From contig NZ_QUSX01000001.1 in assembly GCF_003933245.1 (NCBI RefSeq), positions 806,001 through 870,000 on the forward strand: a DNA stretch of 64,000 bases. Reading direction: 5' to 3'. Positions 38,885 to 64,000 of this stretch are shown here, one piece after another. The translations under genes and the position numbers were made by a program. The notes beneath the pieces were generated by a model. That model saw only the letters and a list, made by a program, of their open reading frames with translations. It ran no database searches and was not told where the DNA came from. The stretch's first letter is position 1; each line of letters opens with the position of its first letter. This stretch comes from Maribacter algicola. GTDB taxonomy: Bacteria; Bacteroidota; Bacteroidia; Flavobacteriales; Flavobacteriaceae.

Positions 38885-40578
38885 TGAAACGATTTGCGCA
38901 ACTCATCAAAACGCTGGATAGTACCAACAAGACCACAGTAAAGGTTGATGCCCTCACCCAATACTTTTTGGAGGCAAACGATGCAGATAAAGTTTGGACC
39001 ATCGCCATCCTATCACACCGCAGGCCTCCCAGACCCGTTAATACGACACTTTTAAGGGAATGGGCATCAGAACTTGCGAACATACCTTTGTGGCTTTTTG
39101 AGGAGAGCTATCATATTGTTGGCGACTTGGCCGAAACCATCGCTCTGGTGGTTCCTTCATCAAAATCGTCCACGGAGAAGACCCTTACCCAATTTTTGGA
39201 GGAGATGATCGCGCTCAAAAAGAAATCGGACCTTGAAAAAAAGCAATATCTTTTTGACAATTGGAAGGTTTTGGATTACTACGAGCGGTTCGTTTTCACC
39301 AAATTGATAACAGGCGGCTTCCGTATTGGGGTAAGTCAAAAATTGATGACTCGGGCACTCTCCAAGGCTACTGAAATTGACGAGGACATTCTGGCTTATA
39401 AGTTAATGGGAAATTGGGACCCAAATAAAATCTCCTTTCAACAACTTATTTTGGAAGAGAATAAAACCGACTACCTATCCAAACCCTATCCCTTTTATTT
39501 GGCCTATGCACTGGAAGATGACCCTGGAAGTTTGGGTGATGTGAACGAATGGTCCATTGAACACAAATGGGACGGCATACGTTCACAGGTCGTCTTGAGA
39601 AACGATGAAATCTTTGTCTGGAGCCGCGGCGAGGAACTGGTTACGGACAAGTACCCGGAGTTTGAACGTTTTATTGGCAAAATACCAAATGGAACAGTCA
39701 TCGACGGGGAAATCCTGCCGTATCCAAAGGGGCAAATCGGGACATTTAACGACCTTCAAAAACGAATCGGAAGGAAGTCGGTTTCCAAATCCCTTCTCGC
39801 AAAAATTCCTGTCATTCTTAAGGCATACGATGTATTGGAATGGAAGGGAATGGATGTACGCCAGAAACCATTTTCCAAACGTAGACAGTATTTAGAGGCC
39901 TTGTTTGATGAAGTAGATCCGACAACGCTCAGCCACCAAAAAACTAAAATTGTCGATGAAAACAAAAGTGGGGCCACTGAGCGGATTCGAAGTGAGTTCA
40001 CTGAGCGGAGTCGAAGTGACTTGCCCCTACAACTCTCGGAAACCATGGATTTTGGTTCTTGGCAAGAGGTTGCCCAAGAAAGGGACCGCTCACGGGAAAA
40101 GCACAGTGAGGGTTTGATGCTGAAAAGAAAGGATTCTCCGTATTTGGTTGGACGAAAAAAAGGGGATTGGTGGAAATGGAAGGTGGACCCCTTGACCATT
40201 GATGCAGTGCTAACCTATGCCATGCGGGGGCACGGGCGTAGAAGCAATTTGTTTACAGATTATACTTTCGCGCTGTGGGACGAAAATGAGAACGGGGAAA
40301 GGGAACTGGTCACCTTTGCCAAGGCTTACTCGGGACTTACGGATGCCGAATTTAGAAAATTGGATGCATGGATCAAGAAAAATACCTTGGAACGTTTTGG
40401 TCCGGTACGAAGTGTTACCCCACATCATGTATTTGAAATCGCCTTTGAAGGGATTGCCCTTTCCAACAGGCACAAAAGTGGTGTCGCTACCCGTTTTCCC
40501 AGGATGTTACGGTGGCGACAGGATAAAAGTATCCATGAGGCGAATAGCTTGGACGATTTAAAAAAAATGATACCATAA
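38881..40578 (+). CDS. ATP-dependent DNA ligase (ligase-associated repair set)
   Basis: 565 residues. Residues about 1-200 form the N-terminal DNA-binding domain. The nucleotidyltransferase motif I is IEHKWDGIRSQ with the AMP-accepting Lys at residue 229 (K-W-D-G), followed by WSRGEELVTDKYPEF, VIDGEILPY, LKAYDVLEW, the motif EGLMLKRKDSPY, and WWKWKVDPLTID (motif V). The C-terminal OB domain holds VTPHHVFEIAFEGIALSNRHKSG. It seals nicks using ATP. An odd segment, about residues 361-382, is made by a 24-bp tandem repeat and is rich in Ser/Arg/Glu (TERIRSEFTERSRSD). It lies in the linker before EGLMLKR and probably is tolerated. Overlaps the exonuclease gene by 4 nt. Confidence 0.94.
   Translation: MMKRFAQLIKTLDSTNKTTVKVDALTQYFLEANDADKVWTIAILSHRRPPRPVNTTLLREWASELANIPLWLFEESYHIVGDLAETIALVVPSSKSSTEKTLTQFLEEMIALKKKSDLEKKQYLFDNWKVLDYYERFVFTKLITGGFRIGVSQKLMTRALSKATEIDEDILAYKLMGNWDPNKISFQQLILEENKTDYLSKPYPFYLAYALEDDPGSLGDVNEWSIEHKWDGIRSQVVLRNDEIFVWSRGEELVTDKYPEFERFIGKIPNGTVIDGEILPYPKGQIGTFNDLQKRIGRKSVSKSLLAKIPVILKAYDVLEWKGMDVRQKPFSKRRQYLEALFDEVDPTTLSHQKTKIVDENKSGATERIRSEFTERSRSDLPLQLSETMDFGSWQEVAQERDRSREKHSEGLMLKRKDSPYLVGRKKGDWWKWKVDPLTIDAVLTYAMRGHGRRSNLFTDYTFALWDENENGERELVTFAKAYSGLTDAEFRKLDAWIKKNTLERFGPVRSVTPHHVFEIAFEGIALSNRHKSGVATRFPRMLRWRQDKSIHEANSLDDLKKMIP
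39975..40022 (+). repeat. In-frame 24-bp tandem repeat of the GAGCGnAGTCGA family inside the ligase gene
   Basis: CACTGAGCGGATTCGAAGTG (39975-39994) is repeated as CACTGAGCGGAGTCGAAGTG from 39999 to 40018, 24 nt apart, so the frame is kept. It adds the peptides TERIRSEF and TERSRSDL to the ligase. The same core occurs in metG, tex and the metG-tex spacer of this window. Confidence 0.85.
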
Positions 40579-40579
40579 T

Positions 40580-43045
40580 ATGAATCGGGAGGAACTATTT
40601 AGCATCGCAGAGAATTGGTTCGAGCAGCAAAACTGGTCGCCCTTCCCCTTTCAAAAGGACACCTGGCAAGCATTTTTACAAGGAAAAAATGGCTTACTCA
40701 ACGCTCCCACAGGAAGTGGGAAGACCTATGCCCTCTGGTTTCCTATCGTTCTAAATTATATCAAGAAAAATCCTGATTATAAGACAAAACATAAAAAAGG
40801 GCTCAAAGCCGTTTGGATTACCCCCTTACGGGCACTTTCCCAAGAAATAAAACAATCCGCAGAGCGGGTAGTTACCGATTTGGGCACCCAAATGACCGTG
40901 GGAATTCGCTCTGGGGATACCAATACCAAAACTAGGGCAGAGCAAAAAAAACAAATGCCCGATTTACTGATCACCACCCCTGAAAGCTTGCAGCTCCTTC
41001 TGGCCACAAAAGGCTATGATAAAATCTTTAAGGACTGCCAAGCCATTGTAGTGGATGAGTGGCATGAAATTTTAGGTACCAAACGGGGAGTACAAATGGA
41101 GCTGGCCTTGTCCCGACTCAAAACGATTTCAAAAAAACTTCGTATTTGGGGCATATCGGCCACCATAGGGAATATGGAACAGGCCCGCGAAGTTTTGTTG
41201 GGCCCTGCCTCCAAAGCCTTGGAAAATTCGGTCTTGATAAAGGCAAACCTCAACAAAAAAATAACGGTAAAAAGTATCATTCCCAATAAAATGGAGACCT
41301 TCCCATGGCGGGGACACCTTGGGCTTCATTTATTGGAATATGTGGTCCCAATAATCAAGAACAGTAAGACTACCCTACTCTTCACCAATACCCGAAGCCA
41401 GTGCGAAATTTGGTTTCAAAAGATTCTGGAAAAACATCCGGAGTTTGCCGGCGAAATTGCCATGCACCATGGGAGCATTAACAAGGAAACACGTATTTGG
41501 GTAGAGAACGCCATCCGAAACGAAAGCCTTAAAGCGGTGGTATGCACCTCCAGCTTGGACCTTGGGGTAGATTTCGCCCCCGTGGAAACCGTGGTCCAGA
41601 TTGGCGGGCCCAAAGGGGTAGCACGCTTTCTCCAACGTGCGGGAAGAAGTGGCCACAGACCGGGTAAGGAAAGTGTTATCTATTTTTTGCCCACCCATGC
41701 GATTGAACTCATAGAGGCTTCGGCCCTGCAAAAGGCCGTGAAACACAATACGGTCGAGGACCGTATCCCCTATTTGAACAGCTATGACGTCCTATTGCAA
41801 TATTTAACCACGTTGGCCATTTCCGATGGATTTTATCCGAAGGAGATTTTCAAGGAAGTATCGGAAACCTTTTGTTATCAGGCATTGAGCGAGGATTATT
41901 GGCAATGGCTGTTGAATTTTTTGGTCATGGGAAGTCAAAGCTTGCAGTCCTATGATGAATACAAAAAAGTGGAAATTGAGGAGGACGGCAGATTCAAGGT
42001 GAACAACAGGGGTGTGGCCATGCGTCACCGTTTTCAAATTGGGACCATTGTAGGGGACGTAAACCTTACCGTAAAATATCAAAAGGGTGGCTACATAGGT
42101 ACTATTGAGGAATACTTCGTTTCCAAGCTCAACAAGGGCGATATCTTCACTTTTGCTGGCAGGAACCTGGAATTTATCCGAATTAAGGATATGCAGGTGC
42201 ATGTAAAAAACTCCAAGAAAAAAACCAGTAAGGTCTCCAGTTGGATGGGCAGTAGGTTGACGCGCTCCGCCCAGATGTCGGAATTACTTCGGAACGAATT
42301 GTACAGTTCTAGTGAAGCGATGGAAAACCAATCGGTGGAAATCCGATGCTTGGCCCACATTTTTGAAAGACAGCGCAGGGAAAGCATCGTACCCCAACCC
42401 AATGAATTCCTCATTGAAACCTTTAAAAGCAGGGATGGTTACCATGCGGTTTTCTATCCTTTTGAAGGACGTTTCGTTCACGAAGCCATGGGAAGTCTTC
42501 TGGGATATCGCATCAGTCTGCTCTCCCCCATTACCTTTTCCCTAGCCTTTAACGATTATGGTTTTGAACTACTCTCGGACAAGCCGATAGATATGCAACA
42601 GGTTTTGGACAACAACCTTTTTACGACCGATTTTCTTTTGGACGACCTGCAGAAAAGTTTGAATGCCACCGAAATGGCAAGACGAAAGTTCAGGGACATC
42701 GCGATTATTAGTGGAATGGTCTTTACCGGCTACCCCAACAAGGGCATTAAAATGAAACACTTGCAAAGTAACTCGCAACTCTTGTTCGAGGTGTTTCGGG
42801 ATTATGAACCGGACAATCTGCTCTTTCAACAGGCCTTTACCGAAACCTTTGAACACCAGCTGGAAGAAGGTCGTTTGCGACTTTCCATGGAACGCATAGC
42901 GACACAAAAAATCGTTTGGAAACAATGCGAAAAGGCCACACCCTTTGCCTTCCCCTTAATCACCGACCGATTGAGCCGTGAGCGACTTTCCAGTGAGAAG
43001 TTGGAAGACCGTATTCGTAGAATGGCGGCCTTATTGATGAAATAA
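40580..43045 (+). CDS. Ligase-associated DEXH-box helicase (Lhr-like)
   Basis: 821 residues. Helicase motifs: Q-like FPFQKDTWQAFLQ, Walker A LLNAPTGSGKTYALW near residue 40, WITPLRALSQE (Ia), LLITTPESLQLLL (Ib), the DEAH-type VVDEWHEILGTKRG (II), WGISATIGNM (III), LFTNTRSQCE (IV), ICTSSLDLGVDFAP (V) and RFLQRAGRSGHRPG (VI). A long C-terminal region (about 400-821) matches the winged-helix/beta-barrel part of Lhr-like helicases. It should move along and unwind DNA to support repair with the neighbouring nuclease and ligase. The start is 1 nt after the ligase stop. Confidence 0.94.
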   Translation: MNREELFSIAENWFEQQNWSPFPFQKDTWQAFLQGKNGLLNAPTGSGKTYALWFPIVLNYIKKNPDYKTKHKKGLKAVWITPLRALSQEIKQSAERVVTDLGTQMTVGIRSGDTNTKTRAEQKKQMPDLLITTPESLQLLLATKGYDKIFKDCQAIVVDEWHEILGTKRGVQMELALSRLKTISKKLRIWGISATIGNMEQAREVLLGPASKALENSVLIKANLNKKITVKSIIPNKMETFPWRGHLGLHLLEYVVPIIKNSKTTLLFTNTRSQCEIWFQKILEKHPEFAGEIAMHHGSINKETRIWVENAIRNESLKAVVCTSSLDLGVDFAPVETVVQIGGPKGVARFLQRAGRSGHRPGKESVIYFLPTHAIELIEASALQKAVKHNTVEDRIPYLNSYDVLLQYLTTLAISDGFYPKEIFKEVSETFCYQALSEDYWQWLLNFLVMGSQSLQSYDEYKKVEIEEDGRFKVNNRGVAMRHRFQIGTIVGDVNLTVKYQKGGYIGTIEEYFVSKLNKGDIFTFAGRNLEFIRIKDMQVHVKNSKKKTSKVSSWMGSRLTRSAQMSELLRNELYSSSEAMENQSVEIRCLAHIFERQRRESIVPQPNEFLIETFKSRDGYHAVFYPFEGRFVHEAMGSLLGYRISLLSPITFSLAFNDYGFELLSDKPIDMQQVLDNNLFTTDFLLDDLQKSLNATEMARRKFRDIAIISGMVFTGYPNKGIKMKHLQSNSQLLFEVFRDYEPDNLLFQQAFTETFEHQLEEGRLRLSMERIATQKIVWKQCEKATPFAFPLITDRLSRERLSSEKLEDRIRRMAALLMK

Positions 43046-43124
43046 GGCCCCGAGCCCCCAAAGGTCAATCCTTATATACACTTCTTTCCTTTGCAGATAC
43101 ATTTAAGCCTCAATAAATCAAACC

Positions 43125-43132
43125 TAGATTTG
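43125..43132 (+). promoter_or_regulatory. -7 element upstream of pdeM
   Basis: TAGATTTG matches TAnnTTTG, 13 nt before the pdeM ATG. No TTG at a proper distance, so a weak or extra promoter inside the cluster. Confidence 0.35.
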
Positions 43133-43145
43133 TATTTTTACACGA

Positions 43146-43808
43146 ATGACCTATGCCATTCAAATTCGAGAGGAATCCTTCCAATTACATTATTCCGGTG
43201 CCTTGTTCTGGGAAAACGAGTCGCTGCTGATGATGAGCGATGTACATTTAGGGAAAATCTCCCATTTTAGAAAATATGGTGCAGCAGTTCCACAACATGC
43301 CCTTTTAAGGAATTTTGAAACCATGGACACGGCCATTGCCCAATTTGACCCAAAACACGTGGTATTTATGGGAGACCTATTCCATTCTTCACTGAACAAG
43401 GAATGGGGATTATTCGAAGAATGGGTGGGCCAAAAAAAAATGCAACTCACTTTGGTAGAGGGGAATCATGATATTATATCGCCCGTAAAATACGAAGCCC
43501 TTGGTATCAAGGTCACGCCCGAGTTTTCATTGGGCAACTTTTTCATGACCCACCACCCGGAGGAGCGGGAAGGCCAATTCAATTTTTCAGGGCATCTACA
43601 CCCTGCCGTCCGTCTTACCGGGCTTGGTAGGCAATCGGTTTGTTTGCGCTGCTTTTACAAATCCTCCGTACAAATGATATTGCCGGCCATGGGAGAGTTC
43701 ACGGGTTCCCATACCATGGCAGTTACAAAGGACAGCGAGGTGTTCGCCATTTTGGGGGATACCGTACTGCCCGTACAGATACACAAACAAAAGTCCAAAT
43801 TTCAATAA
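43146..43808 (+). CDS. pdeM: Ligase-associated DNA damage response endonuclease PdeM
   Basis: 220 residues of the calcineurin-like metallophosphoesterase fold. The metal-binding motifs are all visible: LMMSDVHLGK (DxH) near residue 30-38, VVFMGDLFHSS (GDxxH type) near residue 76, LVEGNHDII (GNHD) and SGHLHPAV (GHxH). It completes the exonuclease-ligase-helicase-PdeM set, 100 nt after the helicase stop. It is expected to cut or process phosphodiester bonds at damaged DNA. The last Lys-rich residues (IHKQKSKFQ) may touch DNA. Confidence 0.93.
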   Translation: MTYAIQIREESFQLHYSGALFWENESLLMMSDVHLGKISHFRKYGAAVPQHALLRNFETMDTAIAQFDPKHVVFMGDLFHSSLNKEWGLFEEWVGQKKMQLTLVEGNHDIISPVKYEALGIKVTPEFSLGNFFMTHHPEEREGQFNFSGHLHPAVRLTGLGRQSVCLRCFYKSSVQMILPAMGEFTGSHTMAVTKDSEVFAILGDTVLPVQIHKQKSKFQ

Positions 43809-43989
43809 AGCTGAAACTTCCTTTTAATGCTTTACATACCTGTCAAGTGGGTGTTTTTATACATTTAGGACCTTTAAACGTGCAAATTATCCATAATTCC
43901 TTTCAAGAAATACAATTTCATTTTTAAAACATGGTATTTTTTACAATATTAAATCGCTTTAATTTTAAGGTGGGCAAAACGGGAAACCA

Positions 43990-46900
43990 GTGAAAAGATT
44001 TGGCTTTTATTTTTTATTGCTGATTGGCTTTCAGCTGGGCATGGCACAGGACCTATTTTTTCAACATTATGGCCTTGATGAGGGTTTGTCGCAACAGACC
44101 ATAAGGTGCATTTCCAAAACCAGTGATGGATTTCTATGGCTAGGTACGCAGGATGGCCTTAACAGGTTTGATGGTAAAAACTTTAAAGTCTACCAACACA
44201 ATGAAAATGATCCGCGCTCCCTTTCGGGGAATTTCATCAATCGGCTTGTAGAAAGCGAAGATGGAACCTTGTGGATCGCTACCGGCGGCAAAGGCGTCTG
44301 TTATTATCATCCGGATACGGATACCTTCCAAAAAGCTCCTCTGGAAGATGGGAACTACATCACATTGGCATTGGACAATGACGGAAATGTTTATACAAAT
44401 TCCGCACAAACAGGATTAACGGTACTCAAAAGAGAGCATAATTTTGCTCCCGAGTATTTTTCGGCCCTTGAAAAAATCATCACCGCCATAGCGATCAAAG
44501 GGAACACGATTTTGCTGGGAACAAAATCGGGACACCTTTTAATGGGTATGGTGGACAAGCTGGACCAATTAACGATTGCCAAGACCACGTATCCCGGAAG
44601 TATTGAAGAAATTGTCCCTTATGAAAACGAATGGCTGCTGGGAACCTCTCGTGGACTTTATCTGTTCAACGAGGCACTGGACACCACGACCTATCTGAAC
44701 ATTGCCGAGCATGACCCAACTTCCAAGGAGGTCTTTTTTATCGAATCCATTTACAACACACAAAACCAACTCTATCTAGGGACGGACAACGGATTTTTTA
44801 TTCTGGAAGGTTTGGATAGGGAATCGGGCAGATTTGCTTCGGGCAAGGTTTACAAGGGCGACCTAGAAGATACGAATACAATCACCAGCAACCGGGTTTA
44901 TGATGTATTGGTACAGAATGACCTCATTTATATCGGAACCAATAATCTGGACATCGCCTCTGAAGGTCTAAACGTCTTTAAGACCGTCAATCCCGATACC
45001 AAGCCGGCATTGACCAACAACTACGTCTTTTCCATTTTAAAGGATACCGATTATTTATTTGTTGGTACTCGGAAAGGAATTAATTGTATTGACCAAAGCG
45101 GCGTTGTACATGTAATTTCCAAAGAGAGTACCCAACAACAACTTGCATATGATGTCATTAGGGGAATGGCCAAGGATGACCATAACAACCTTTGGGTAGC
45201 GACTACCAAGGGTGTTTCGGTAATTTCCCTAAACGATTTCAACCCCCAAAAACCAAAGGTCATTTCATTCTTTTTTGATGAAACAGATCCAAAATCCCTG
45301 AGCAATGACAATACAAGGAGCATTTATAAAGACCCACAAGGAACGATGTGGGTATGCACCTATGGCGGCGGACTAAACCGTTTTACGGGCGACCTGAGCC
45401 AAAACATAATCACTTTTGAAAGGTATGGTATGCTGAACGGGGAAAGGTCCATAAGTTCAGATTTTGTCTACAACATAGTTCAGGACCAAAAAAACCGCTA
45501 TTGGATAAGCTCCGAAAATGGCCTTAACCAAATGATCTTTAAAGAGAAGGATTATCAAGTACCCCTTTTCAAGACATACTTCGCCAATGGAAAGGAAGGG
45601 GAATTGAAAAACAATAGCGTTCTGAACACTTTTTTGGATTCTGATGGAACACTATGGGTAACCACCCAAAGCGGAATCGACAAATACGATGAACAGACAG
45701 ATTCATTTATCCATTACGGAAAAGAGGAAGGATTGGGCAACGATTATGTGTATAACATTTTGGAGGATGCTGATGGCAAATTATGGATGAGCACAAACAA
45801 CGGATTGTTCCGTTTTGACAAGAAAAATGAAAAGTTCATCCATTTTACCGTCAAGGACGGGCTGCAAAGTTCTGAATTCAACCTAGGAGCCCATTTTAAT
45901 GACCAAACGAACAACGTTCTTTATTTTGGGGGAATCAATGGGTTCAATTCCTTTTATCCGCGCAACGTACATCTACTGGACTGGCAGGGAAATCTTTCCT
46001 TGACCTCCCTTAAAATAAAGGATAGGGAAGTGAACCCAATTACTCATCCACAGGTTTTGGACCTTGGTTTTAGCAAGGCGAAAAGAATAACCTTGGACCA
46101 TGACTCCTTCCCCTGCTACATCCAGTTCACTGATTTTGATTACCGCCCCAACAAAAACACCCAATACCATTATTCCTTGGATGATAGGGAATGGAACGCC
46201 CTGGCATACAGCAATGAACTTCAATTGCTTCAATTGCCCAAAGGAAAGCACACCTTGAAAATACAGGGCAGTTCCAGGGACGGTTTTTGGCAGAAGGACC
46301 CATTGGAACTGGAAATCGCAGTTATCCCTCCTTGGTACAACAGCAACCTTGCCTATTGCCTTTATGCCTTGCTACTATTGGGAACCGGCTATACGATGTA
46401 TCGTTTTCGTTTGCGCCAAAAAATGGCGTTCCAAGAGGCAAAACGACTTAAGGAACTTGACGATATCAAATCCAGACTCATCACGAACATCACCCACGAA
46501 TTTAGAACGCCACTAACCGTAATCCTTGGTTATTTGAATACCTTGAACTATGAATTTGCAGGGCGTCCAAAAATGAAACTTCCGCTCAATGCCATTGAAC
46601 AAAACAGTAAAAATCTTTTAAAATTGGTGAACGAAATGCTTGATTTGGCCAAATTGGAAACTGGCAACCTAACGCTGAACATGACCCCCTTAAACTTGGC
46701 GGCGTTTACCCATTATATAGTTCAAAGTTTTTCCAGTCTCGCCCAAAAAAACAATATCCAACTTAAATTTTTTAAGGCCGATGATTCCATTGTAGCAAAA
46801 GTGGACTCCGAAAAAATGCGACAAATATTGTACAACCTGATAAGCAACGCCCTTAAGTTTTCTGAGCAGGGAAGTACGGTAAAAATATTGGTGGCCACAG

Positions 46901-47994: not shown

Positions 47995-48148
47995 CTACAT
48001 ATAAGGTGTTTACGATATTTTTTTGCAAAAATACTACCCATGATATTTTGGTGATCGCACAAATAATCGTTCCATTTGCCAAAATAGCCAAGAAGGAATG
48101 CACGACTGTTCCTGATATTTGACCTGAACCAAATAAATAAAAGAAAAA

Positions 48149-48346
48149 ATGAAAACTTCAAGTGTATTGATCGTGCTACTTCTTATGAATTCCGGTTTCT
48201 TGGCAGGGGTGCTAGGAACGCAACTTCTGGGCTTTCTAAACCCCTATATAGTAGGAGGGGCGGAACTCTTTTTGGGTATAGCCTATTATGCGCATACGGT
48301 CATTAGGGATGTACGTAACTGCTTTGACGTGGATTTCAAATTATAA
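48149..48346 (+). CDS. Small membrane protein, unknown
   Basis: 65 residues. Two hydrophobic segments are seen: SSVLIVLLLMNSGFLAGVLG (about 4-23) and PYIVGGAELFLGIAYYAH (about 32-49), with a charged end VIRDVRNCFDVDFKL. I do not recognise a family. It follows the hybrid regulator by 154 nt and precedes mfd by 208 nt. It could be a real small protein or a chance ORF; the purine-rich AAATAAAAGAAAAA before the ATG and the two clean helices favour real. Confidence 0.5.
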   Translation: MKTSSVLIVLLLMNSGFLAGVLGTQLLGFLNPYIVGGAELFLGIAYYAHTVIRDVRNCFDVDFKL

Positions 48347-48507
48347 GTTACCTTGGTAAGGTAATGATTTGATTGAATCATCTGGGAGCTACTGGATCAA
48401 GGCTCAAAAGAGCTTTGGAATCCTAAAATTCGCTTTCCAAATTTTTGGTGAAAACAAAGTGTGCACTTTAAATCATGAAATGGGTTAAAAAATGTCATTG
48501 GAAAAAA

Positions 48508-55263: not shown

Positions 55264-55285
55264 AATTGAACCCAACTACTAACAA

Positions 55286-55319
55286 CTAATAAAGGAAACC
55301 CTTTTCCATTCTTTATTAG
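55286..55319. other. Hairpin in the spacer after the TlpA-like gene
   Basis: CTAATAAAG (55286-55294) pairs with CTTTATTAG (55311-55319), with an inner GGAAA/TTTCC pair. No T tract follows, so it is a doubtful terminator; it lies between two convergent genes and may act as one. Confidence 0.35.
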
Positions 55320-55451
55320 AGACTTGTTCTAAATAAAAGCCTGTGGTAATTCTAGCCACCATTTTAGAATTTGAAATTTGCAGCTTAAAATTTTTGAATA
55401 CCCATAAAACACAAAGTATTTCTCTGACTTACAAAAATCCCTAATGAAGCA

Positions 55452-56111
55452 CTATAGCGTCTTTAAATCCTTAATGGTCTTAAAGGCAATGTCTACCTGT
55501 TCGTCATTCACCAAAATAGTAAACTCATTGGTAGTGGAAATAACTTCGTAGAGAACGATTCCCTCCCAAGCCAAACGCTGAAAAATGAAATAATAAATAC
55601 CCGGTACGGAAACGTTTTCTGCGGGTAACTTTACTGTTATGGAGGAAAGATTATCCGCCTTTTGGGTACATTTTTCGTCCTTGAACAATTTCTGGACGGT
55701 CTCGTCCATGATACTGCTGATGACGATATTAATTTCGTTTACGCCCCTACTGGAAGTATAAAAGACATCTTGATTTTCATTTATTTCTTCCAATAACTTG
55801 GCCTGATGCACCAAGATGTTGTCCGATGCCAAAAAGGTATAATCGGTAAGAGAAGACCTAACCGTAATTTCACCAATATTCTTCAAAACCTTTAAAATCT
55901 TATGCGTAGCCCTAAATTCAAGGTCATCAGACAACCTTTTTAAGGCCATAACTATGGCCCCATTGCGAATATCCTTTCCTAGTTCCGCCTCAATTTCCGG
56001 TTTCACGATTCTTGAGAGTGACGTTAGGTTGATGATACCTTGTGCCAAGGCGCTTTGTAAAAATGGCTTTTTCTTGATATAGTGCTCTACAACGGAAGAA
56101 ATGGTCTTCAT
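55452..56111 (-). CDS. ACT-domain-like protein of unknown role
   Basis: 219 residues. The first about 85 residues look helical and may bind nucleic acid (EHYIKKKPFLQSALAQGIINL, NGAIVMALKRLSDDL). The rest holds two ACT-like beta-alpha-beta modules: ITVRSSLTDYTFLASDN with NEINIVISSIMDETVQKLF, and VPGIYYFIFQRLAWEGIVLYEV with NEFTILVNDEQVDIAFKTI. Related flavobacterial proteins are sometimes called aspartate kinase because of the ACT part, but there is no kinase domain here. It could be a small ligand sensor. Function unknown. Confidence 0.72.
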   Translation of the reverse strand: MKTISSVVEHYIKKKPFLQSALAQGIINLTSLSRIVKPEIEAELGKDIRNGAIVMALKRLSDDLEFRATHKILKVLKNIGEITVRSSLTDYTFLASDNILVHQAKLLEEINENQDVFYTSSRGVNEINIVISSIMDETVQKLFKDEKCTQKADNLSSITVKLPAENVSVPGIYYFIFQRLAWEGIVLYEVISTTNEFTILVNDEQVDIAFKTIKDLKTL

Positions 56112-56299
56112 CTGTTAGAATTTATTGATTTAATAGGCTGTATGCAATGTACCGTCCCGATAACTTTCGGAGCACCTCGTAGGTTAACGAGAATGCTATT
56201 GGTTCATTTCAGACATTTGGTTGTTTAAGCAAATATAACAAGTTGTTATAAATAAAACAAAATGTTTTTAAATATTATTCTATAAAATTAATAGGATAA

Positions 56300-56659
56300 T
56301 CAAAAGTAATAATAGGCACTTTCTAAATGTTCAATCTCCAAATTTCCACCTTCCTTGAAGATGGTAATTATATCAAAACGGGTATCCACATCCAATTCCC
56401 GTGAAGTCACGTAATGGTCGGCCGTTGCAACCAATAACTTAATCTTCTTTTGGGTAACCGTTTCAGCTATGTTTTCAATAAATTTTGAGCTTCGGGAACG
56501 TACTTCTACAATGGCGAGAATATCATCCTTTCTGGCTACGATATCGATTTCGCCTTTTAAATATCTATAGTTTTGGTAGCAGATTTTGTATCCTTTTTTA
56601 ATGAGATAATTTTTGGCCATCTCCTCGCCTTCCTTCCCAAATTCATTATGTTTTCCCAT
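56300..56659 (-). CDS. YraN/UPF0102-family protein, nuclease-like
   Basis: 119 residues, standard length. The family pattern is clear: FGKEGEEMAKNYLIKKGYKI, NYRYLKGEIDIVARKDD and AIVEVRSRS. The GEID...VEVRxR combination is the E-x-D / E-x-K-like active-site arrangement of Holliday-junction-resolvase-type nucleases, but enzymatic activity of the family is not well established. It is read away from the DUF1800 gene and follows a 189-nt divergent spacer. Likely cytoplasmic. Confidence 0.93.
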   Translation of the reverse strand: MGKHNEFGKEGEEMAKNYLIKKGYKICYQNYRYLKGEIDIVARKDDILAIVEVRSRSSKFIENIAETVTQKKIKLLVATADHYVTSRELDVDTRFDIITIFKEGGNLEIEHLESAYYYF

Positions 56660-56848
56660 AATATTCTGTAAAAGAGTGTATTTCGTCGAAAAACTAGGTT
56701 TTTTAACGCATTTAAAAAATGAACATATTAAATTCGGATGTCAGACAACGAAAATATACGGATTCTTATACTATCCCAAATTTCGTTGCGTTAAATAGAA
56801 GCCCCAACTCTATAGAACGTAACATTATTAACGCCCTACTTTAGGACT

Positions 56849-58342
56849 ATGGAATATTTCATTAATTGTAATACTTCTACCCTTGCTCCGTATACGGCAC
56901 CTTTAGACCAAACCAGAGCTTTACACCTTTACAGAAGATTAGGTTTTAGTGCATCGGTAGATACCGTCAATCAAGCCACCGGACAAAATGCCGGTACCCT
57001 TGTGGATACACTGGTGGACCAGGCCATTAACATGGCACCCACTGCCGCCCCTGTTTGGGCCGATTGGAACAATGCAAATTACCCGGCTGACGATGATGCC
57101 CGCAGACAACTGGTAAACCAACAACGGTCAGAATTCGCCCTAGGATACGCAAATGCCTTATTATCCAACAATCTTAGAGATCGATTGAGTTTCTTTTGGA
57201 GCAATCATTTTGTAACCGAATTGGATGTTTACGAGTGTAATTCCTTTTTGTACCACTACATCAACTGCCTTCAAAGAAACGCCATTGGAAATTTCAGGAC
57301 GTTCGTAAGTGAAATTGGCCTAACTAGCGCCATGCTCTATTATTTGGACGGTGTCTACAATAATGGCAACAATCCTAACGAGAATTATGCTCGAGAGTTA
57401 TACGAACTATTCACCCTTGGTGAAGGTAATGGGTACACGGAACAGGACATTATAGAAACTGCAAGGGCTCTTAGTGGTTATGTAGAGCGCGGCGAGGAAG
57501 GATGTACCCAGGTGACCTTTAGGGCGGATAGACATGATACTGGCACTAAAACTATTTTGGGACAGACGGGCGCGTGGGGCTATGATGATGTCATCACCAT
57601 CCTTTTCCAACAACGGCCCAACGAAATTGCGGAATTCATCTGTAGAAAACTCTATGAATTTTTTGTGCACCCAGATTCCCAGGACGATGCGAACAACGCA
57701 CAAACGATAATTGACGGAATGGCATCGACCTTCATTTCCAATAATTTTGAATTGGCTCCAGTACTAAGACAGCTTTTTAAAAGTGAGCACTTTTTTGACG
57801 ATGAGGCCATTGGCGTAATCATCAAAAGTCCTTTCGATTTCTATTTGAACACCTTAAAGGAAACTAGCTTTGCCTATGATGATACCGTATTGGGCTCTAT
57901 GCTCAATTATAGTGGAATGTTAGGTCAAGAGCTGTTCGACCCCTTTGATGTGGCCGGATGGCAGCGGGACAGAACGTGGATCAACACCAATTTTATTATA
58001 GGTAGATGGCTTACCATAGAAAGCATTTTGGAATCTTTCTACCAACAGAATAACGAACAATTCAGGTCGTTGGGTTTATCAATTACAGGGACTACTGGCT
58101 TGACAAGTACCAACCCTGATGTGGTAGCCCGACTTATCATCGACTTTATCCTCCCCAAAGGTTTATTGGACGAAGGAGAATACGCAAAAGCATTCGCCAT
58201 TTTTAGAAGCGATGTGGAAGACGTCTACTACGAAGGTGGCAACCAGGAATCCTGGACCTTGGCCACATGGCCACAAGCCCCATATCAAGTGTATCTCTTG
58301 ATGCAATACCTAGCTAGACAACCTGAATATCAATTAAAATAA
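56849..58342 (+). CDS. DUF1800-domain protein
   Basis: 497 residues beginning MEYFINCNTSTLAPYTAPLD, as in other flavobacterial members; no signal peptide is evident. The DUF1800 pattern is seen in HLYRRLGFSASVDTV, NLRDRLSFFWSNHFVTEL, MLYYLDGVYNNGNNPNENYA, RELYELFTLGEGNGYTEQD and FDPFDVAGWQRDRTWINT. The WxNHF and PNENYARELxELFTLG motifs are the most conserved. Function unknown. It is nearly always found before a DUF1501 gene, as here (14 nt gap), so the two are likely to act together, probably on an exported product. Confidence 0.9.
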   Translation: MEYFINCNTSTLAPYTAPLDQTRALHLYRRLGFSASVDTVNQATGQNAGTLVDTLVDQAINMAPTAAPVWADWNNANYPADDDARRQLVNQQRSEFALGYANALLSNNLRDRLSFFWSNHFVTELDVYECNSFLYHYINCLQRNAIGNFRTFVSEIGLTSAMLYYLDGVYNNGNNPNENYARELYELFTLGEGNGYTEQDIIETARALSGYVERGEEGCTQVTFRADRHDTGTKTILGQTGAWGYDDVITILFQQRPNEIAEFICRKLYEFFVHPDSQDDANNAQTIIDGMASTFISNNFELAPVLRQLFKSEHFFDDEAIGVIIKSPFDFYLNTLKETSFAYDDTVLGSMLNYSGMLGQELFDPFDVAGWQRDRTWINTNFIIGRWLTIESILESFYQQNNEQFRSLGLSITGTTGLTSTNPDVVARLIIDFILPKGLLDEGEYAKAFAIFRSDVEDVYYEGGNQESWTLATWPQAPYQVYLLMQYLARQPEYQLK

Positions 58343-58356
58343 CAATACCTACCGCT

Positions 58357-60057
58357 ATGTGCCATACACACCACTCACCCCACAAAGGACTAGAACACGA
58401 TGGTCATGATAAAGAACATCAAATATGGAGCCGACGTTCCTTCTTACAGGCATTAGGAATTGCCGGTTCCGGTTCTATGTTGCTGGGAGCCAATATGCTA
58501 ACGGCATCCTCCCCGTCCCCATTGACTGCAGGAATTGCAGCGGCCGAAACGGATAATATCCTAATTCTCATAAGGTTATCTGGTGGCAACGATGGTCTAA
58601 GTACCGTTATACCCATTGAACAATATGACAGTTATGCCAATGCACGGCCCAACATTTATATCCCGGAAAGTAAAGTGTTAAAACTTACGGACGAGTTTGG
58701 GGTTCCATCCTACATGGGCGCCTTGGAGCCCCTATGGGGCAACGGCCAGTTTAAAGCCGTTCATGGAGTAGGTTATGAAAATCAAAGTTTGTCCCATTTT
58801 ACGGGGTCGGACATTTATGCCAACACAGATTTGACCACAACCGGTTTTAGCGGTCTGAACACAGGATGGATGGGAAGGCATTTTGAAAATATCTATCCCG
58901 ATTATTTGATCAATCCTCCAGCGGCACCGGCAGCAATACAGATCGGTCAATTTGGAAATTTAATTTTCCAAGGAGAAGAAACAAACTATGCCTTTGTAAC
59001 CTCTAATGTGGATCAATTACAAGAAATCGCGGAATCTGGTGTGGTCTACGGTTTGGACAATGCCCTCTTCAACGGTTGTATGTACGGGGATCAATTGAAA
59101 TTTTTAAGAGGTGTGGCGAATACCACGTACGAATACTCCGGTCTAATTCACGAGGCCTACGAAAGAGGCCAAAACCAAGTAGAATATCAACAGAACGGAT
59201 TTGCTCGTCAGATGGCCCTATTGGCGAGATTGATAAAAGGCAATCTGGGAACCAAAGTATATATGGTATCTATGGGCGGTTTTGACACTCATGGGAACCA
59301 GCCTTTGGCGCACGAACGACTAATGACCAATCTATCGGTTGCTATTAATAATTTCTACGAGGATTTAGGATTTACGCAACAGGACAACAAGGTTTTGAGT
59401 ATGACCTTTTCGGAATTTGGCCGAAGGATATTCGAAAACGGTTCAAACGGAACGGACCACGGAAAGGCGGCCCCTACCCTGTTCTTTGGTTCGGGATTGA
59501 ACGGAAGTGCCTTTGTAGGCGACCACCCTACGTTGGAAGACCCTGATGGAAGGGGCAACCTGGAATACACCATGGATTTCCGTGACCTTTATGCCACTGT
59601 ATTGGCCGAATGGTTATGTGTGGACATTCCGCTGGTGGAACAACATCTATTGGACCACCCCTACAACCCGGTGAATTTAGGCTTTAACTGTAGCGGTACG
59701 GATTTCCCCGATATCGTGTACAGCGATGGCCCTGTGACTCCGCCAACACAACCCGGCGAAGAGGGTTCGGATCCCGTAAACCCGGATTTATTGAACGCCA
59801 TTGTGCACAAGCCATTTTATCCTACAGATAGTACGCCACATATTTACCTGGAAATGCCCTTCTCTGCTCAGGTAGACATTCAACTTTATAATATTCTTGG
59901 ACAACATGTAGGTACCGTCTTTAACGAAATGATGCTAGAAGGTTCTACCGAAATCAACATACGAGAGCGCGTACCCAAGCACCTATCAACCGGCAAGTAC
60001 ATTTATCGCATAAGTGTACAGAATCAAAAGATGAGCAAGTCGGTAATGGTAGCGTAA
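58357..60057 (+). CDS. DUF1501-domain protein with Tat-like signal and type IX sorting domain
   Basis: 566 residues. The first 21 are His-rich (seven His; MCHTHHSPHKGLEHDGHDKE), followed by a twin-arginine-like signal SRRSFLQALGIAGSGSMLLG at 25-44. The DUF1501 body has LILIRLSGGNDGLSTVIP, HFTGSDIYANTDL, MGGFDTHGNQPLAHERL, and TFSEFGRRIFENGSNGTDHG (alkaline-phosphatase-like features, including possible metal ligands). The last 90 residues (YLEMPFSAQVDIQLYNILGQ, KYIYRISVQNQKMSKSVMV) form a type A Por secretion sorting domain. It is paired with DUF1800 upstream and ended by a terminator. Role unknown. Confidence 0.9.
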   Translation: MCHTHHSPHKGLEHDGHDKEHQIWSRRSFLQALGIAGSGSMLLGANMLTASSPSPLTAGIAAAETDNILILIRLSGGNDGLSTVIPIEQYDSYANARPNIYIPESKVLKLTDEFGVPSYMGALEPLWGNGQFKAVHGVGYENQSLSHFTGSDIYANTDLTTTGFSGLNTGWMGRHFENIYPDYLINPPAAPAAIQIGQFGNLIFQGEETNYAFVTSNVDQLQEIAESGVVYGLDNALFNGCMYGDQLKFLRGVANTTYEYSGLIHEAYERGQNQVEYQQNGFARQMALLARLIKGNLGTKVYMVSMGGFDTHGNQPLAHERLMTNLSVAINNFYEDLGFTQQDNKVLSMTFSEFGRRIFENGSNGTDHGKAAPTLFFGSGLNGSAFVGDHPTLEDPDGRGNLEYTMDFRDLYATVLAEWLCVDIPLVEQHLLDHPYNPVNLGFNCSGTDFPDIVYSDGPVTPPTQPGEEGSDPVNPDLLNAIVHKPFYPTDSTPHIYLEMPFSAQVDIQLYNILGQHVGTVFNEMMLEGSTEINIRERVPKHLSTGKYIYRISVQNQKMSKSVMVA

Positions 60058-60082
60058 ACGGTTTCCCCACTATGTAACTTGA

Positions 60083-60117
60083 CCTTCGGTCGTACTATGG
60101 TACACCGAGGGTTTTTT
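60083..60117 (+). terminator. Rho-independent terminator after the DUF1501 gene
   Basis: CCTTCGGT (60083-60090) pairs with ACCGAGGG (60104-60111), one G-T pair, followed by T6 (60112-60117), 25 nt after the stop. Confidence 0.8.
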
Positions 60118-60157
60118 GATTTTTCACTATCTGGTCCTACTCGGCATTAAAAATGGT

Positions 60158-60165
60158 TATTTTTG
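60158..60165 (+). promoter_or_regulatory. -7 element of the metG promoter
   Basis: TATTTTTG matches TAnnTTTG, 18 nt before the metG ATG. No clear TTG at -33. Confidence 0.4.
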
Positions 60166-60183
60166 TGCCTTTAATTTACATTG

Positions 60184-62310
60184 ATGTCGACAACTACAGC
60201 ACCCAAGAGATATACCATCACCGCAGCCCTGCCTTATACCAACGGACCCATTCATATAGGTCATTTGGCCGGGGTCTACGTACCTGCGGATATTTATGCC
60301 CGTTATTTACGCCTAACAGGAAAAGATGTTGCCTTTGTTTGTGGCAGCGACGAGCATGGCGTGGCCATTTCCATGAAGGCCAAGAAAGAAGGAGTTTCAC
60401 CCAAGGATGTTATCGATAAGTATCACGCTATTATAAAACAATCCTTTGCGGACTTTGGCATTTCCTTTGACAATTACTCCCGGACCTCAGCAGAGGTACA
60501 TCATGAAACAGCATCGGGATTTTTCAAAAAATTATACGAACAAGGAGATTTCATAGAGGAAACTACCGCCCAATTATACGACGAGGAAGCGAAACAGTTT
60601 TTGGCCGACCGATTCGTAATCGGTACTTGTCCTAAATGCGGCAACGAGGAAGCCTATGGCGACCAGTGTGAAAATTGCGGGTCGTCCCTGAACGCCACCG
60701 ATCTGATACATCCAAAATCGACCATCACGGGTTCTGTCCCCACTACAAAGGAAACCACCCATTGGTTTTTGCCCCTGGACCGCTATGAGGAATTTTTAAG
60801 GGAATGGATCTTAAAAGGCCATAAGGACGATTGGAAACCCAACGTCTATGGACAATGTAAATCTTGGATCGATGGGGGTCTGGAACCCCGCGCCGTCACC
60901 CGTGATCTGGATTGGGGAATTCCCGTCCCTGTAAAGGGGGGTGAAGGTAAAGTTTTGTATGTATGGTTCGATGCACCCATTGGCTACATCTCCTCCACCA
61001 AGGAATGGGCCCTAAGGGAAGGAAAGGATTGGAAACCCTACTGGCAGGACAAGGACACCAAATTGGTACATTTCATTGGAAAAGACAATATTGTTTTCCA
61101 CTGCATTATTTTCCCTGCCATACTGAAAGCACATGGAGGTTATATACTTCCCGAAAATGTTCCGGCCAACGAATTCTTGAATTTGGAGGGGAACAAACTT
61201 TCCACCTCCAAAAACTGGGCCGTGTGGCTACATGAATATTTGGAGGATTTCCCAAACATGCAAGATGTGTTGCGTTACACACTAACAGCCAATGCTCCGG
61301 AAACCAAGGACAACGACTTTACATGGAAAGACTTTCAGGCTAGGAACAACAACGAGCTAGTGGCTATTTTTGGGAATTTCGTGAACCGCGTTGTAGTGTT
61401 AACAAATAAGTACTACGAAGGTGAAATACCCACTCCAAGTACCCTTTTGGAAGTGGATATTGAAACCTTGAACGAACTCAAAAAATTTCCAGAGATTATC
61501 TCCAGTTCCTTGGAGCGCTATCGCTTTCGGGAAGCTGGTCAGGAGTTGATGAATCTTGCCCGCTTGGGCAATAAATATTTAGCCGATGCCGAACCTTGGA
61601 AGGTCATCAAAGAAGATGAGGATCGCGTGAAAACAATTATGTATGTGGCTTTGCAAATTGCCACTGGATTAGCCGTGTTGAGCGAGCCGTTTTTACCGTT
61701 TACGTCGGATAAGTTAAAAAACATACTCAATATCGCTTTGGCTCCGCTCAGCGACCCGAATTTGGAGGCTGAACGTAGTCGAAGTCTCACTTGGAACAGC
61801 GTTTCTCAAAATGAGAACCTGTTATTACCCGGACACAAAATAGGTCAATCCGAACTATTGTTCCGTAAAATAGAAGACTCTGAAATACAGGCTCAACTGG
61901 ACAAGCTGGAAGCCACCAAAAAAGCAAACCAACAAGAAAACAAAGAACTCATGCCTCAGAAAGATACAATTACCTTTGACGATTTCTCCAAATTGGATAT
62001 GCGCGTAGGTACCATCATGGAAGCCGAGAAAATGCCAAAAGCCAAAAAACTATTGGTCCTTAAGGTGGATACCGGATTGGATGTTCGTACCATTGTTTCC
62101 GGCATTGCCGAAAGTTTTACCCCAGAAGAAATTGTGGGTAAAAAAGTGACCGTTCTTATCAATTTGGCACCTAGGGCCCTTCGTGGTGTAGAAAGCGAGG
62201 GCATGATTTTAATGACGGAAAACAAGGAAGGTAAATTGGTGTTTGTAAATCCTGATAATTCTTTCGATTCCAGTGGAGATGGAGTCGGAAATGGAGCGAC
62301 TATCAATTAA
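60184..62310 (+). CDS. metG: Methionyl-tRNA synthetase with C-terminal tRNA-binding domain
   Basis: 708 residues from the ATG at 60184 (a TTG one codon earlier is less likely). The class I core has the HIGH motif [16 protein letters not shown], a zinc knuckle [18 protein letters not shown] at about 149-166, [16 protein letters not shown], and the KMSKS-type loop [12 protein letters not shown]. The C-terminal EMAP/Trbp111-like domain (about 598-700) shows [18 protein letters not shown] and [19 protein letters not shown]. It charges initiator and elongator tRNA(Met). An odd 18-residue stretch, [16 protein letters not shown] at about 519-536, comes from an inverted pair of the GAGCGnAGTCGA repeat inserted in the linker after LKNIL. 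Confidence 0.96.
61740..61788 (+). repeat. In-frame inverted pair of the GAGCGnAGTCGA repeat inside metG
   Basis: GGCTCCGCTCAGC (61740-61752) is an inverted copy, matching 10 of 13 positions, of GCTGAACGTAGTC (61768-61780), and the right arm continues as GAAGTCTC. The arms belong to the same repeat as in the ligase gene. It adds about 17 residues ([15 protein letters not shown]) without breaking the frame. Confidence 0.75.
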
Positions 62311-62351
62311 TCCAATTGAATTTGTTCCAATAGATTCTCGTGTATAGCTGG

Positions 62352-62389
62352 CACATCGAGCGGAGACGAGATAGGAGACCTATTCGAAG
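62352..62389 (+). repeat. Intergenic relative of the GAGCGnAGTCGA repeat
   Basis: CACATCGAGCGGAGACGAG (62352-62370) keeps the core GAGCGGAGACGA, one change from the ligase copies, then runs into ATAGGAGACCTATTCGAAG with a TAGGAGACCTA near-palindrome. It lies in the metG-tex spacer. Confidence 0.55.
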
Positions 62390-62475
62390 CAGGCTTGTTC
62401 GATAACTTCTCTTCTGCAACTCCAAAAAAATGCTCCTTTTTGGCGGACACCTGAACAGACAAAAAATAATTTACC

Positions 62476-64000
62476 ATGTTACTTATCCCCTATATCCAAA
62501 AACACACCAACCTGCCTGAAAAAGCCATCCAAAACACGGTGGAACTACTTAACCAGGACTGTACCGTGCCCTTTATTTCCCGATATCGAAAGGAAGCCAC
62601 GGGTGGTTTGGACGAGGTTCAGATTGGCAGCATCGTACAGTTTAAGGAACAGTTCGAGGCCTTGGAAAAACGGAAAATTGCCATTATTAAATCCGTTGAG
62701 GAACAGGGTTTATTAACCCCGGAACTTAGGGCCAAATTTGAATCCGCCGAGGATTTGACCCAATTGGAAGACCTCTACCTTCCCTTCAAAAAAAGCAAAA
62801 AAACCAAGGCCGAGGTAGCCCGAAAACAAGGTCTGGAACCCTTGGCCAAAATCATGATGGCCCAACGGTCGGACGATATAGAGTTTTTAGCTTCCAAATA
62901 TCTGGGTCCTGAAATACAAAACGAAGACGAAGCTTTGGAAGGTGCGCGACACATCATTGCCGAATGGATCAATGAACGAACGGATATTCGAAATATGATC
63001 CGGAACCAGTTGGAACGCTTTGCCTTGATTACCACAAAAGTGGTGACCGCCATGAAGGATACTTCGACTACGCTCAGCACAAGTGAAAAAGCACAGAAAT
63101 TCCGGGATTATTTTGATTGGAGCGAACCTTTGAACCGTTGTCCATCGCACCGTCTATTGGCCATTTTACGGGCGGAATCGGAAAAAATCATCCGAGTAAA
63201 AATAGAACTTGACGATGAGCGGTTACTGGAACGCATCGAGGAAAAAATCATCAAAACCAACAATGCCTGTGCGGAGCAAATAGCATTGGCCATTGCCGAT
63301 GCCTATAAACGCTTACTGTTTCCATCCCTTTCAAATGAACTGTTGAAAAACGCCAAGGAAAAAGCAGATGACGAAGCAATCGCCGTTTTCTCCAAAAATC
63401 TGCGTCAATTGTTGTTGGGGGCTCCTTTGGGCGAAAAACGAATTTTAGCGATTGACCCCGGATTTAGGACGGGTTGTAAATTGGTCTGTTTGGACGCACA
63501 GGGCAATCTTTTACACAATGAAACCATATATCCCCATGCTCCCCAAAACGATACCACCGGAGCCATCAAGAAATTAAGTTCCTTGGCCGATGCCTATAAA
63601 ATTGAAGCCATTGCCATTGGAAATGGAACCGCATCCAGGGAAACGGAACGATTGGTGAAAAAAGTGGCCTTTAAAAATCCCATCGAGGTTTTTGTGGTCA
63701 GTGAGGCCGGGGCTTCCATCTATTCTGCCTCCAAAATTGCCCGAGAAGAATTTCCAAATTATGATGTTACCGTACGTGGCGCCATTTCCATAGGTAGGCG
63801 CTTGGCTGACCCTTTGGCAGAATTGGTAAAAATCGACCCTAAGTCCATAGGTGTAGGGCAGTACCAGCACGATGTAGACCAAACGAAATTGAAAAAATCT
63901 TTGGACACCGTTGTGGAAAGTTGTGTGAACTCCGTAGGTGTAAACATCAATACGGCCAGCGTTCCTTTGTTAAGTTACGTATCCGGTATTGGCCCAAAAC
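62476..64000 (+). CDS. tex: Tex-family transcription accessory / RNA-binding protein (partial, runs off the right edge)
   Basis: 508 codons are present from the ATG at 62476 to the window end; the C-terminal HhH and S1 domains lie outside. The N-terminal helical part shows VPFISRYRKEATGGLDEVQI and FESAEDLTQLEDLYLPFKKS (the YLPFKxK signature). The YqgF-like RNase H-fold is seen in LGEKRILAIDPGFRTGCKLV and AIAIGNGTASRETERLVKK, then VVSEAGASIYSASKIAREEF and RRLADPLAELVKIDPKSIGVGQYQHDV. Tex is a conserved nucleic-acid-binding protein involved in transcription. An insert of about eight residues (TSTTLSTS) lies where the repeat at 63061 falls. Confidence 0.95.
   Translation, partial: MLLIPYIQKHTNLPEKAIQNTVELLNQDCTVPFISRYRKEATGGLDEVQIGSIVQFKEQFEALEKRKIAIIKSVEEQGLLTPELRAKFESAEDLTQLEDLYLPFKKSKKTKAEVARKQGLEPLAKIMMAQRSDDIEFLASKYLGPEIQNEDEALEGARHIIAEWINERTDIRNMIRNQLERFALITTKVVTAMKDTSTTLSTSEKAQKFRDYFDWSEPLNRCPSHRLLAILRAESEKIIRVKIELDDERLLERIEEKIIKTNNACAEQIALAIADAYKRLLFPSLSNELLKNAKEKADDEAIAVFSKNLRQLLLGAPLGEKRILAIDPGFRTGCKLVCLDAQGNLLHNETIYPHAPQNDTTGAIKKLSSLADAYKIEAIAIGNGTASRETERLVKKVAFKNPIEVFVVSEAGASIYSASKIAREEFPNYDVTVRGAISIGRRLADPLAELVKIDPKSIGVGQYQHDVDQTKLKKSLDTVVESCVNSVGVNINTASVPLLSYVSGIGPK
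63061..63080 (-). repeat. In-frame copy of the GAGCGnAGTCGA repeat inside tex (opposite orientation)
   Basis: ACTTCGACTACGCTCAGCAC on the + strand is the reverse complement of GTGCTGAGCGTAGTCGAAGT, matching the ligase copies closely over its core. It is read as TSTTLSTS before the conserved EKAQKFRDYFDW. Confidence 0.75.

Follow-up and report, generated by a model that had tools for sequence, protein, structure and literature searches.

Organization of the locus and anatomy of the repeat

The 64-kb window (the whole stretch of 64,000 nucleotides analysed here, from the genome of Maribacter algicola, referred to below as the host) carries a short repeat with the core GAGCGNAGTCGA in three genes, those of an ATP-dependent DNA ligase, methionyl-tRNA synthetase (metG) and Tex (tex), and in the spacer between metG and tex. 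Our analysis suggests that each of these repeats is a copy of a short mobile hairpin, which was probably mobilized by a small GIY-YIG nuclease whose gene lies among other copies. The genes and elements of the window are as follows.

38881..40578, + strand: ATP-dependent DNA ligase gene, 565 aa (PF01068, PF04675, PF04679), which hosts two units
39970..39993, + strand: ligase linker copy 1, a 24-bp unit; core 39979-39990 with one mismatch; stem ACT/AGT; encodes GATERIRS
39994..40017, + strand: ligase linker copy 2, a 24-bp unit; core 40003-40014, exact; stem ACT/AGT; encodes EFTERSRS
60181..62310, + strand: metG, methionyl-tRNA synthetase, 709 aa (PF09334, PF19303, PF01588), which hosts an inverted pair
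61734..61753, - strand: degenerate element in the metG linker; core 61738-61749 with two mismatches; 4-bp stem CGCT/AGCG; inverted relative to the next metG element
61768..61785, + strand: second metG linker element; core 61771-61782 with one mismatch; encodes AERSRS
62354..62373, + strand: intergenic element in the metG-tex spacer; core 62358-62369 with one mismatch; stem ATC/GAT
62476..64000, + strand: tex, 715 aa, running beyond the window end (PF16921, PF09371), which hosts a 24-bp insertion
63061..63084, - strand: 24-bp insertion in tex; core 63064-63075, exact; the coding strand reads TSTTLSTS

The two ligase copies form a tandem with a period of 24. The exact core occurred twice in the window (40003-40014, + strand; 63064-63075, - strand) and in none of 100 shuffles, and with at most one mismatch it occurred five times, against 0.3 expected and two in the largest shuffle. 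The variant core GAGCYTGTCGA gave a single one-mismatch match in the window, which is the chance level. All six repeat sites named in the original prediction were present, and the coding copies in ligase, metG and tex keep the frame as it had claimed, but the core that it assigned to all six was exact in two of them, with one mismatch in three and two mismatches in one.

In the whole host genome (4,114,314 bases in 7 contigs), 28 exact copies of the core were found and none of the backwards-pattern control, which is a clear excess; with at most one mismatch allowed, the numbers were 60 and 6. Most copies lay outside coding frames (22 of the 28 exact copies and 42 of the 60 with at most one mismatch), as judged by a crude open-frame caller in which genes were the longest open frames of at least 100 aa rather than the output of a gene finder.

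The flanks were taken at all 60 host places, and the stem statistics were calculated on the 28 exact copies. Within the four flank bases on each side of the core, 100 of 112 positions were paired, and when the right-hand flanks were dealt randomly the mean was 47.7 and the maximum 68, with none of 5000 trials reaching 100. Since the stem letters differ between copies (CCT/AGG in 8, TTC/GAA in 4, ATC/GAT in 4, and others), the pairing is kept while the stem sequence changes, that is, the two sides covary. The base pair adjacent to the core was T-A in 16 and C-G in 10 of these copies, and stem positions 5 and 6 were paired in just 7 and 10. Inspection by eye showed a TGTC tag a few bases upstream of most C-closed copies, and that the T-closed copies, including the coding ones, mostly carry a C-Y-T-G-Y or similar tag. 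The consensus is composed of a 5' tag and a variable stem of about 3-6 bp enclosing the conserved core GAGC-GNA-GTCGA, which would fold as GA / G-C / GNA / G-T-C / GA, with a GNA triloop and, flanked by two GA steps, a bulged T. In the coding subtype, the unit measures 24 bp and, as read from its letters, is open in five of the six frames. Oppositely oriented pairs were observed in the host at C2:836278/836320 and C2:946194/946236. The repeat is a hairpin like the repetitive extragenic palindromic (REP) elements, and is apparently mobile; the earlier claim of a Bacteroidota REP-like palindromic element that enters coding regions in both orientations with the frame kept is supported.

Insertions in coding genes and empty sites in relatives

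Elements in coding frames were found in five host genes, namely the ligase (two), metG (the inverted pair), tex, a beta-ketoacyl-synthase-like gene (KAS, L013) and a BlaR1-like M56-peptidase gene (L004). The copies at an epimerase gene (L053) and at FtsX-like genes (L042) were rejected as coding, being sited upstream of likely start codons, and three copies at C2:1130018-1130119 were dropped, their 148-aa antisense frame being doubtful.

The tex insert was absent in 25 of 28 homologues (21 congeners and 4 from other genera) and present in G000, G005 and G007; in G007 the insert adds 24 bases to tex between KED and EK, and in G000 and G005 it is one codon shorter. At the M56 gene, 4 of 22 homologues had 24 extra bases at TATTCATCA/ATCAAAAAACG, 16 were empty and 2 had a different insert. 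Because these 24-bp inserts face empty sites in congeners, those of tex and M56 are datable insertions; by eye, no more than 1 bp could be a target duplication. Both are palindromic insertions that keep the reading frame of the protein, a feature shared with Rickettsia palindromic elements. The different M56 insert, found in G003 (L193) and G019 (L196), is longer, in frame and at the same position, with inverted-repeat arms by eye, and is apparently another palindromic family at the same site.

The copies in ligase, metG and KAS sit in older linkers whose occupancy varies. In the ligase linker, a core with at most one mismatch was recognisable at least once in 15 of 24 homologues, with up to four 24-bp units in G022 (by eye), and the linker was short in homologues of two other families. 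The metG gene, readable at 17 of the 23 tex loci tried, had such a core in 8 of the 17 homologues, with differing stems and, in some homologues, in another reading phase, which gave SSAVE-type rather than ERSRS-type peptides. The KAS gene had it in 14 of 22 homologues, and the KAS element of G013, eight codons longer, seems by eye to contain a second element. In various congeners, the ligase and metG linkers were occupied, emptied or decayed. The claim that the repeat was inserted in three essential or repair genes stands for tex, which is a clean insertion, and is too strong for the variable linkers of ligase and metG; likewise, the added peptides, expected to be lacking in relatives, are cleanly lacking at tex (25 of 28) but not at the other two, given the cores in their homologues.

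These variable linkers bear on the explanation that the repeats are ordinary drifting linkers or conserved peptides with no insertion involved. The core recognisable in most ligase homologues, together with metG copies absent or decayed in 9 of 17, would agree with it, but the empty sites of tex and M56, the same DNA core in different phases and between genes, and the genome-wide excess argue strongly against it. This explanation, untenable for tex and M56, could hold for single decayed copies and is otherwise hardly credible.

Elements inside elements

The loci collected were also searched for nested elements of the form outer stem-GAGC, 14-45 nt, GTCGA/GCCGA-outer stem. Outer frames enclosed a core in 23 of 173 cases, compared with 0 of 37 for the backwards-halves control (Fisher p 0.017), which is a modest control because the loci had been fetched for holding the element. 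In the 22 unique nested cases with one core, the inner length was 27 nt in 11, 28 in 3, 29 in 2, 26 in 1 and 39-44 in 5. Since the normal loop is 3 nt, an inner stretch of 27 nt means a net gain of 24 bp; one of the 11 such cases (L277) was doubtful by eye. The nested cases came from the host and G007, from further Bacteroidota, from records of other phyla and from viral contigs. Because most nested sites lie outside known coding constraint, the eight-codon length may be intrinsic to the unit.

A GIY-YIG nuclease gene beside the element

The element is patchily abundant in Bacteroidota. The exact core was found in 44 of 60 genomes sampled as relatives (host included), with 1 to 56 copies in 35 congeners, and in 200 of 296 genomes of the phylum, with maxima of 194 (G061), 134 (G087) and 96 (G074).

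In the host, elements at C1:1097533, 1097911 and 1097946 (cluster C1:1097533-1097957) surround the gene of a small single-domain GIY-YIG nuclease (C1:1097569-1097877; PF01541, 65.4 bits, residues 3-76 of 103), and a small GIY-YIG gene lies inside element clusters of G007 and G274 too. Alignment of 17 nucleases, 4 of them seeds found near the element and 13 homologues found by sequence alone, showed that Y18, G20, R28 and E66 were invariant in all 17; NCBIfam gave no name for any of the six nucleases searched. The cluster of G274 (L247:4057-5956), with 26 copies of at most one mismatch around the nuclease gene, mostly in alternating orientation, is the densest found.

The 17-protein alignment was then searched in the same 296 phylum genomes, and the 30 best loci, two of which (G000, G274) are seeds, were counted for an element defined as GAGC, 2-5 nt, G[TC]CGA and a 3-bp stem, a definition that misses decayed copies such as the spacer copy of the window, 107 bp upstream of tex. 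An element was present within 400 bp in 26 of the 30 nuclease loci and the exact core in 21; for a gene in a copy-rich genome, the expected number of exact cores is about 0.011. None of 77 control loci (tex, KAS and M56) had an element within this distance. A + element lay upstream in 19 of the 30 loci, a - element downstream in 22, and both in 15. Five of the nine loci lacking a core with at most one mismatch had a variant core such as GAGCTTGTCGA.

Copy number was also compared with the nuclease matches, and hairpin type followed the nuclease lineage. At least 10 copies were present in 22 of the 31 genomes with a nuclease match at E<=1e-35, a cut-off chosen post hoc, compared with 27 of the 265 others (Fisher p 4e-13), and the median copy number was 24 in the former and 1 in the latter. 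For hairpin types and the tree, 20 further loci, which are outside the count of 26 of 30, were picked by hand, and 12 of the resulting 50 nuclease rows were left out of the tree for lack of an adjacent element. On the tree of the remaining 38 rows, the hairpin type changed 11 times, compared with a mean of 19.7 when shuffled, and none of 200 shuffles was as low. Paralogues within a genome carried different hairpins in G211 (GNA-loop and TTG-loop) and G284 (GNA-loop and another loop).

The original prediction had pointed to another partner, the IS200-like Y1 transposase known as REP-associated transposase (RAYT), and a REP/RAYT system in which this enzyme moves the repeats has to be weighed here. 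Di Nocera et al. 2013 (PMC3733652) describe RAYT-linked REPs as short palindromes that are dispersed, form head-to-head pairs and include intragenic copies in frame. About 150 bp upstream of a Y1 gene of G250, which is outside the 60 loci described next, lies an element whose stem has 3 bp. This speaks for the transposase and against the nuclease, in a number near the chance expectation of about 0.9 element neighbours among 85 Y1 matches (0.011 per gene). In contrast, none of the 60 Y1 loci fetched, several of which are gene fragments or at contig ends and two of which overlap, had the element within 400 bp, and the sole Y1 match of the host is a 34-bit remnant with no element beside it. A Y1 match was found in 18 of the 60 relatives and in 18 of 24 copy-rich genomes, and none in G061, G087, G274, G248, G060 and G161, each of which has 16-194 copies. 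The GTAG (GT[AG]G) foot was not seen by eye in the flanks of the 60 host copies or in the 30 nuclease loci. With these results a RAYT or IS200-type partner is not supported, and we regard such a system as very unlikely. The partner is probably not a RAYT, and the gene among the elements is that of a small GIY-YIG nuclease.

The full-length Y1 genes of the congeners G030 (L063) and G002 (L065) adjoin other short palindromes, for example GCCCTTTCAGGGC-like ones (by eye), and three congener RAYT loci had other palindromes alongside (by eye); the genus may thus harbour two or more hairpin systems that are unrelated to each other. In several congeners (L118, L121, L123, L133, L136), the ATP-dependent ligase adjoins a small GIY-YIG gene of a second, distinct kind, which is not flanked on both sides by the element. 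In a metagenome bin titled Spirochaetes (L365:5825-6310), a homologous nuclease is flanked by one + and three - copies, a locus that may represent a transfer or a mis-binned contig.

The CCCT-stemmed form was found in at least 119 stretches, many of them in metagenome bins whose single titles are possibly wrong; the titles include Bacteroidota, Spirochaetes, Acidobacteria, Chloroflexi, cyanobacteria, Proteobacteria, Patescibacteria and others. This form was also present in 114 stretches of predicted viral contigs (loci L367 onward), several of which had multiple or nested copies.

Proposed mechanism

Taken together, the hairpin is probably spread with the help of the neighbouring nuclease. The nuclease would recognise the hairpin as single-stranded DNA, exposed on the lagging strand or during repair or uptake, and would cut at the tag and the loop, so freeing a hairpin-sized piece, which host polymerase and ligase could capture at breaks or at cut loops. 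Since 24 bp make eight codons and five of the six frames of the coding subtype are open, insertions into flexible linkers would be tolerated; they would be read as TERSRS/AERSRS or, in the opposite orientation, as TSTTLSTS.

Several observations weigh against mobilization by the nuclease. Position beside a nuclease gene is no proof of mobilization. In nearest-neighbour DNA folding, the hairpin was no more stable than its shuffles in 7 of 7 cases (z 0.21 to 1.16). Four of the 30 nuclease loci had no element; a second host nuclease (C1:1874009-1874296) has two GAGCCTGTCGA elements, within about 160 bp and on the upstream side only, and a third host nuclease has none. The main nuclease of the host adjoins the C-closed subtype, the coding copies of the host are T-closed, and a nuclease matching the T-closed subtype was not found in the host genome. 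Two G087 paralogues share one hairpin type, and kin share nuclease and hairpin by descent, which contributes to the tree signal. The Spearman correlation between copies and nuclease was 0.29 overall, 0.49 in the host family and 0.13 (p 0.03) outside it; 27 of the 49 genomes with at least 10 copies had no strong nuclease match, and G061, with 194 copies, had none at E<=1e-10. Concerning the length of the unit, several of the longer nested cases (L319, L524, L443 and some in L463) look by eye like tandem arrays, and one nested host site gains 20 bp, not 24, over its un-nested counterpart in G007; 24 bp is not universal as a gain. G248, G333 and G335, with 34, 16 and 16 exact copies, likewise had no nuclease match at E<=1e-10.

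In another explanation, the nuclease would be a passenger, or would use the repeats only as recognition sites, and the repeats would spread otherwise, for example by replication template switching or gene conversion. In Neisseria, the NTS repeats recognised by the nuclease Ssn are said to act as recognition sites that control DNA uptake. The copy-rich genomes lacking a strong nuclease match favour this explanation, template switching could yield hairpin-in-hairpin structures, and GIY-YIG enzymes are hydrolytic nucleases, not transposases. On the other hand, the hairpin type tracks the nuclease tree, paralogues of the host, G211 and G284 carry different types (those of G087 the same), and a recurrent net gain of 24 bp at unrelated places is hard to obtain by random template switching. 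We consider a passenger or pure recognition role less likely, and mobilization of the hairpin by the GIY-YIG nuclease remains the preferred explanation.

CGTC-tagged repeats beside the nuclease on plasmids

The published CGTC-tagged REPs showed no association with transposase genes in the 2013 survey (PMC3733652), where Azospirillum lipoferum and S. meliloti are named as carriers. In a plasmid survey, in which 13 of 51 hits with a GIY-YIG match were opened, a [CT]GTC-tagged hairpin with a stem of at least 5 bp was present within 250 bp of the GIY-YIG gene in 9 of the 13, and with a stem of at least 7 bp in 7 of the 13. Tagged stems of at least 7 bp numbered 18 in the 6,500 bp near the genes and 12 in the remaining 36,141 bp of these stretches. 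The hairpins of an A. lipoferum plasmid (CGTC-ATCCCCGC-gaag-GCGGGGAT-CCA) and of Sinorhizobium and Shinella plasmids (CGTC-ATCCTCGGG-cttga-CCCGAGGAT-CCA) fit the published CGTC REP form. Further tagged hairpins were found in Novosphingobium, Sphingobium, Rhizobium CIAT894 and Photobacterium (on the downstream side only), and shorter ones beside the gene in Planktothrix and Spirosoma. A tenth plasmid, of Sphingomonas parapaucimobilis (L531), had the GAGC...GTCGA-type core of this study instead, and the plasmid loci L532, L533 and L540 had neither a tagged hairpin nor the host-type core.

From these data we tentatively propose, as a possibility held with somewhat less than even confidence, that small GIY-YIG nucleases form, alongside RAYTs, a second class of REP-mobilizing enzyme. 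Such nucleases would cleave hairpins in single-stranded DNA and introduce pieces of hairpin size (24 bp in this case) into breaks, older elements and genes. They might be the missing partner of the CGTC-type REPs in Bacteroidota, Alphaproteobacteria and probably Cyanobacteria, and might explain the in-frame entry into proteins. PMC3733652 leaves the mobilizer of CGTC REPs open, and the nuclease association points to a candidate enzyme whose pairing with the hairpin is lineage-specific. A mobile unit of eight codons (24 bp) would be a concrete route for adding peptides to proteins, and the finding bears on a GAGC...GTCGA hairpin motif that is present in many bacterial phyla.

Comparison with known systems

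The element and its coding habit belong to an already-known type, because intragenic, frame-keeping REPs have been described before. REPs within repair genes, a ligase and tRNA synthetases of other species were reported in PMC3733652, and frame-keeping REP insertions in TnpA_REP genes in PMC6006769. 'G. forsetii', which we take to be Gramella, a member of the Bacteroidota, is listed as CGTC-positive in PMC3733652.

The CGTC-tagged REPs (PMC3733652, in part), which include RPE-4/RPE-6 of R. conorii and dRS3 of Neisseria, share with the host element the form of short dispersed hairpins, the presence inside genes for repair proteins, ligase and tRNA synthetases (there in other species), and the absence of a RAYT partner. 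Their CGTC/TGTC tag is matched by the C-closed subtype beside the nuclease, whereas the coding T-closed copies mostly carry C-Y-T-G-Y. They have a stem of 8-9 bp, a loop of 4-5 nt and a CCA tail, to which the host element does not conform: its 12-nt core is enclosed by stems of about 3-6 bp, and no CCA tail was seen. The host element also has a neighbouring GIY-YIG nuclease, and no associated transposase is given for CGTC REPs in PMC3733652. With the REP/RAYT REPtrons (GTAG REPs, PMC3733652, in part), it has in common a nuclease gene with inverted short hairpins, dispersed copies and in-frame insertions; it differs in the enzyme, which is Y1/HUH there and GIY-YIG here, and in the lack of a GTAG foot. 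TnpA_REP subclasses 2.4 and 2.6 occur in Bacteroidetes (PMC6006769, in part).

Rickettsia palindromic elements, compared by description only, share the in-frame palindromic insertions in proteins. Their RPE-1 inserts are reportedly longer than the 24 bp found here. A 2025 study is said to have described Ssn, a small GIY-YIG single-strand nuclease family, with the Neisseria NTS repeat in hundreds of copies and homologues that have their own recognition sequences; repeat mobility and in-frame insertion were reportedly not its subject. Such traits are found here as well, in the single GIY-YIG domain and in the repeats that lie beside the gene (26 of 30 loci) and dispersed in the genome.

A literature search by the letters of the repeat found no name for the GAGC...GTCGA hairpin motif, and none of the papers listed, judged by title and start of abstract, linked GIY-YIG enzymes to repetitive extragenic palindromic sequences. 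A 2025 REP survey (PMC12306157) mentions neither nuclease nor transposase in its main text, as far as available. So far as the searched literature shows, what is new compared with these systems is the 24-bp unit, the nested elements and the pairing of nuclease and hairpin in Bacteroidota.

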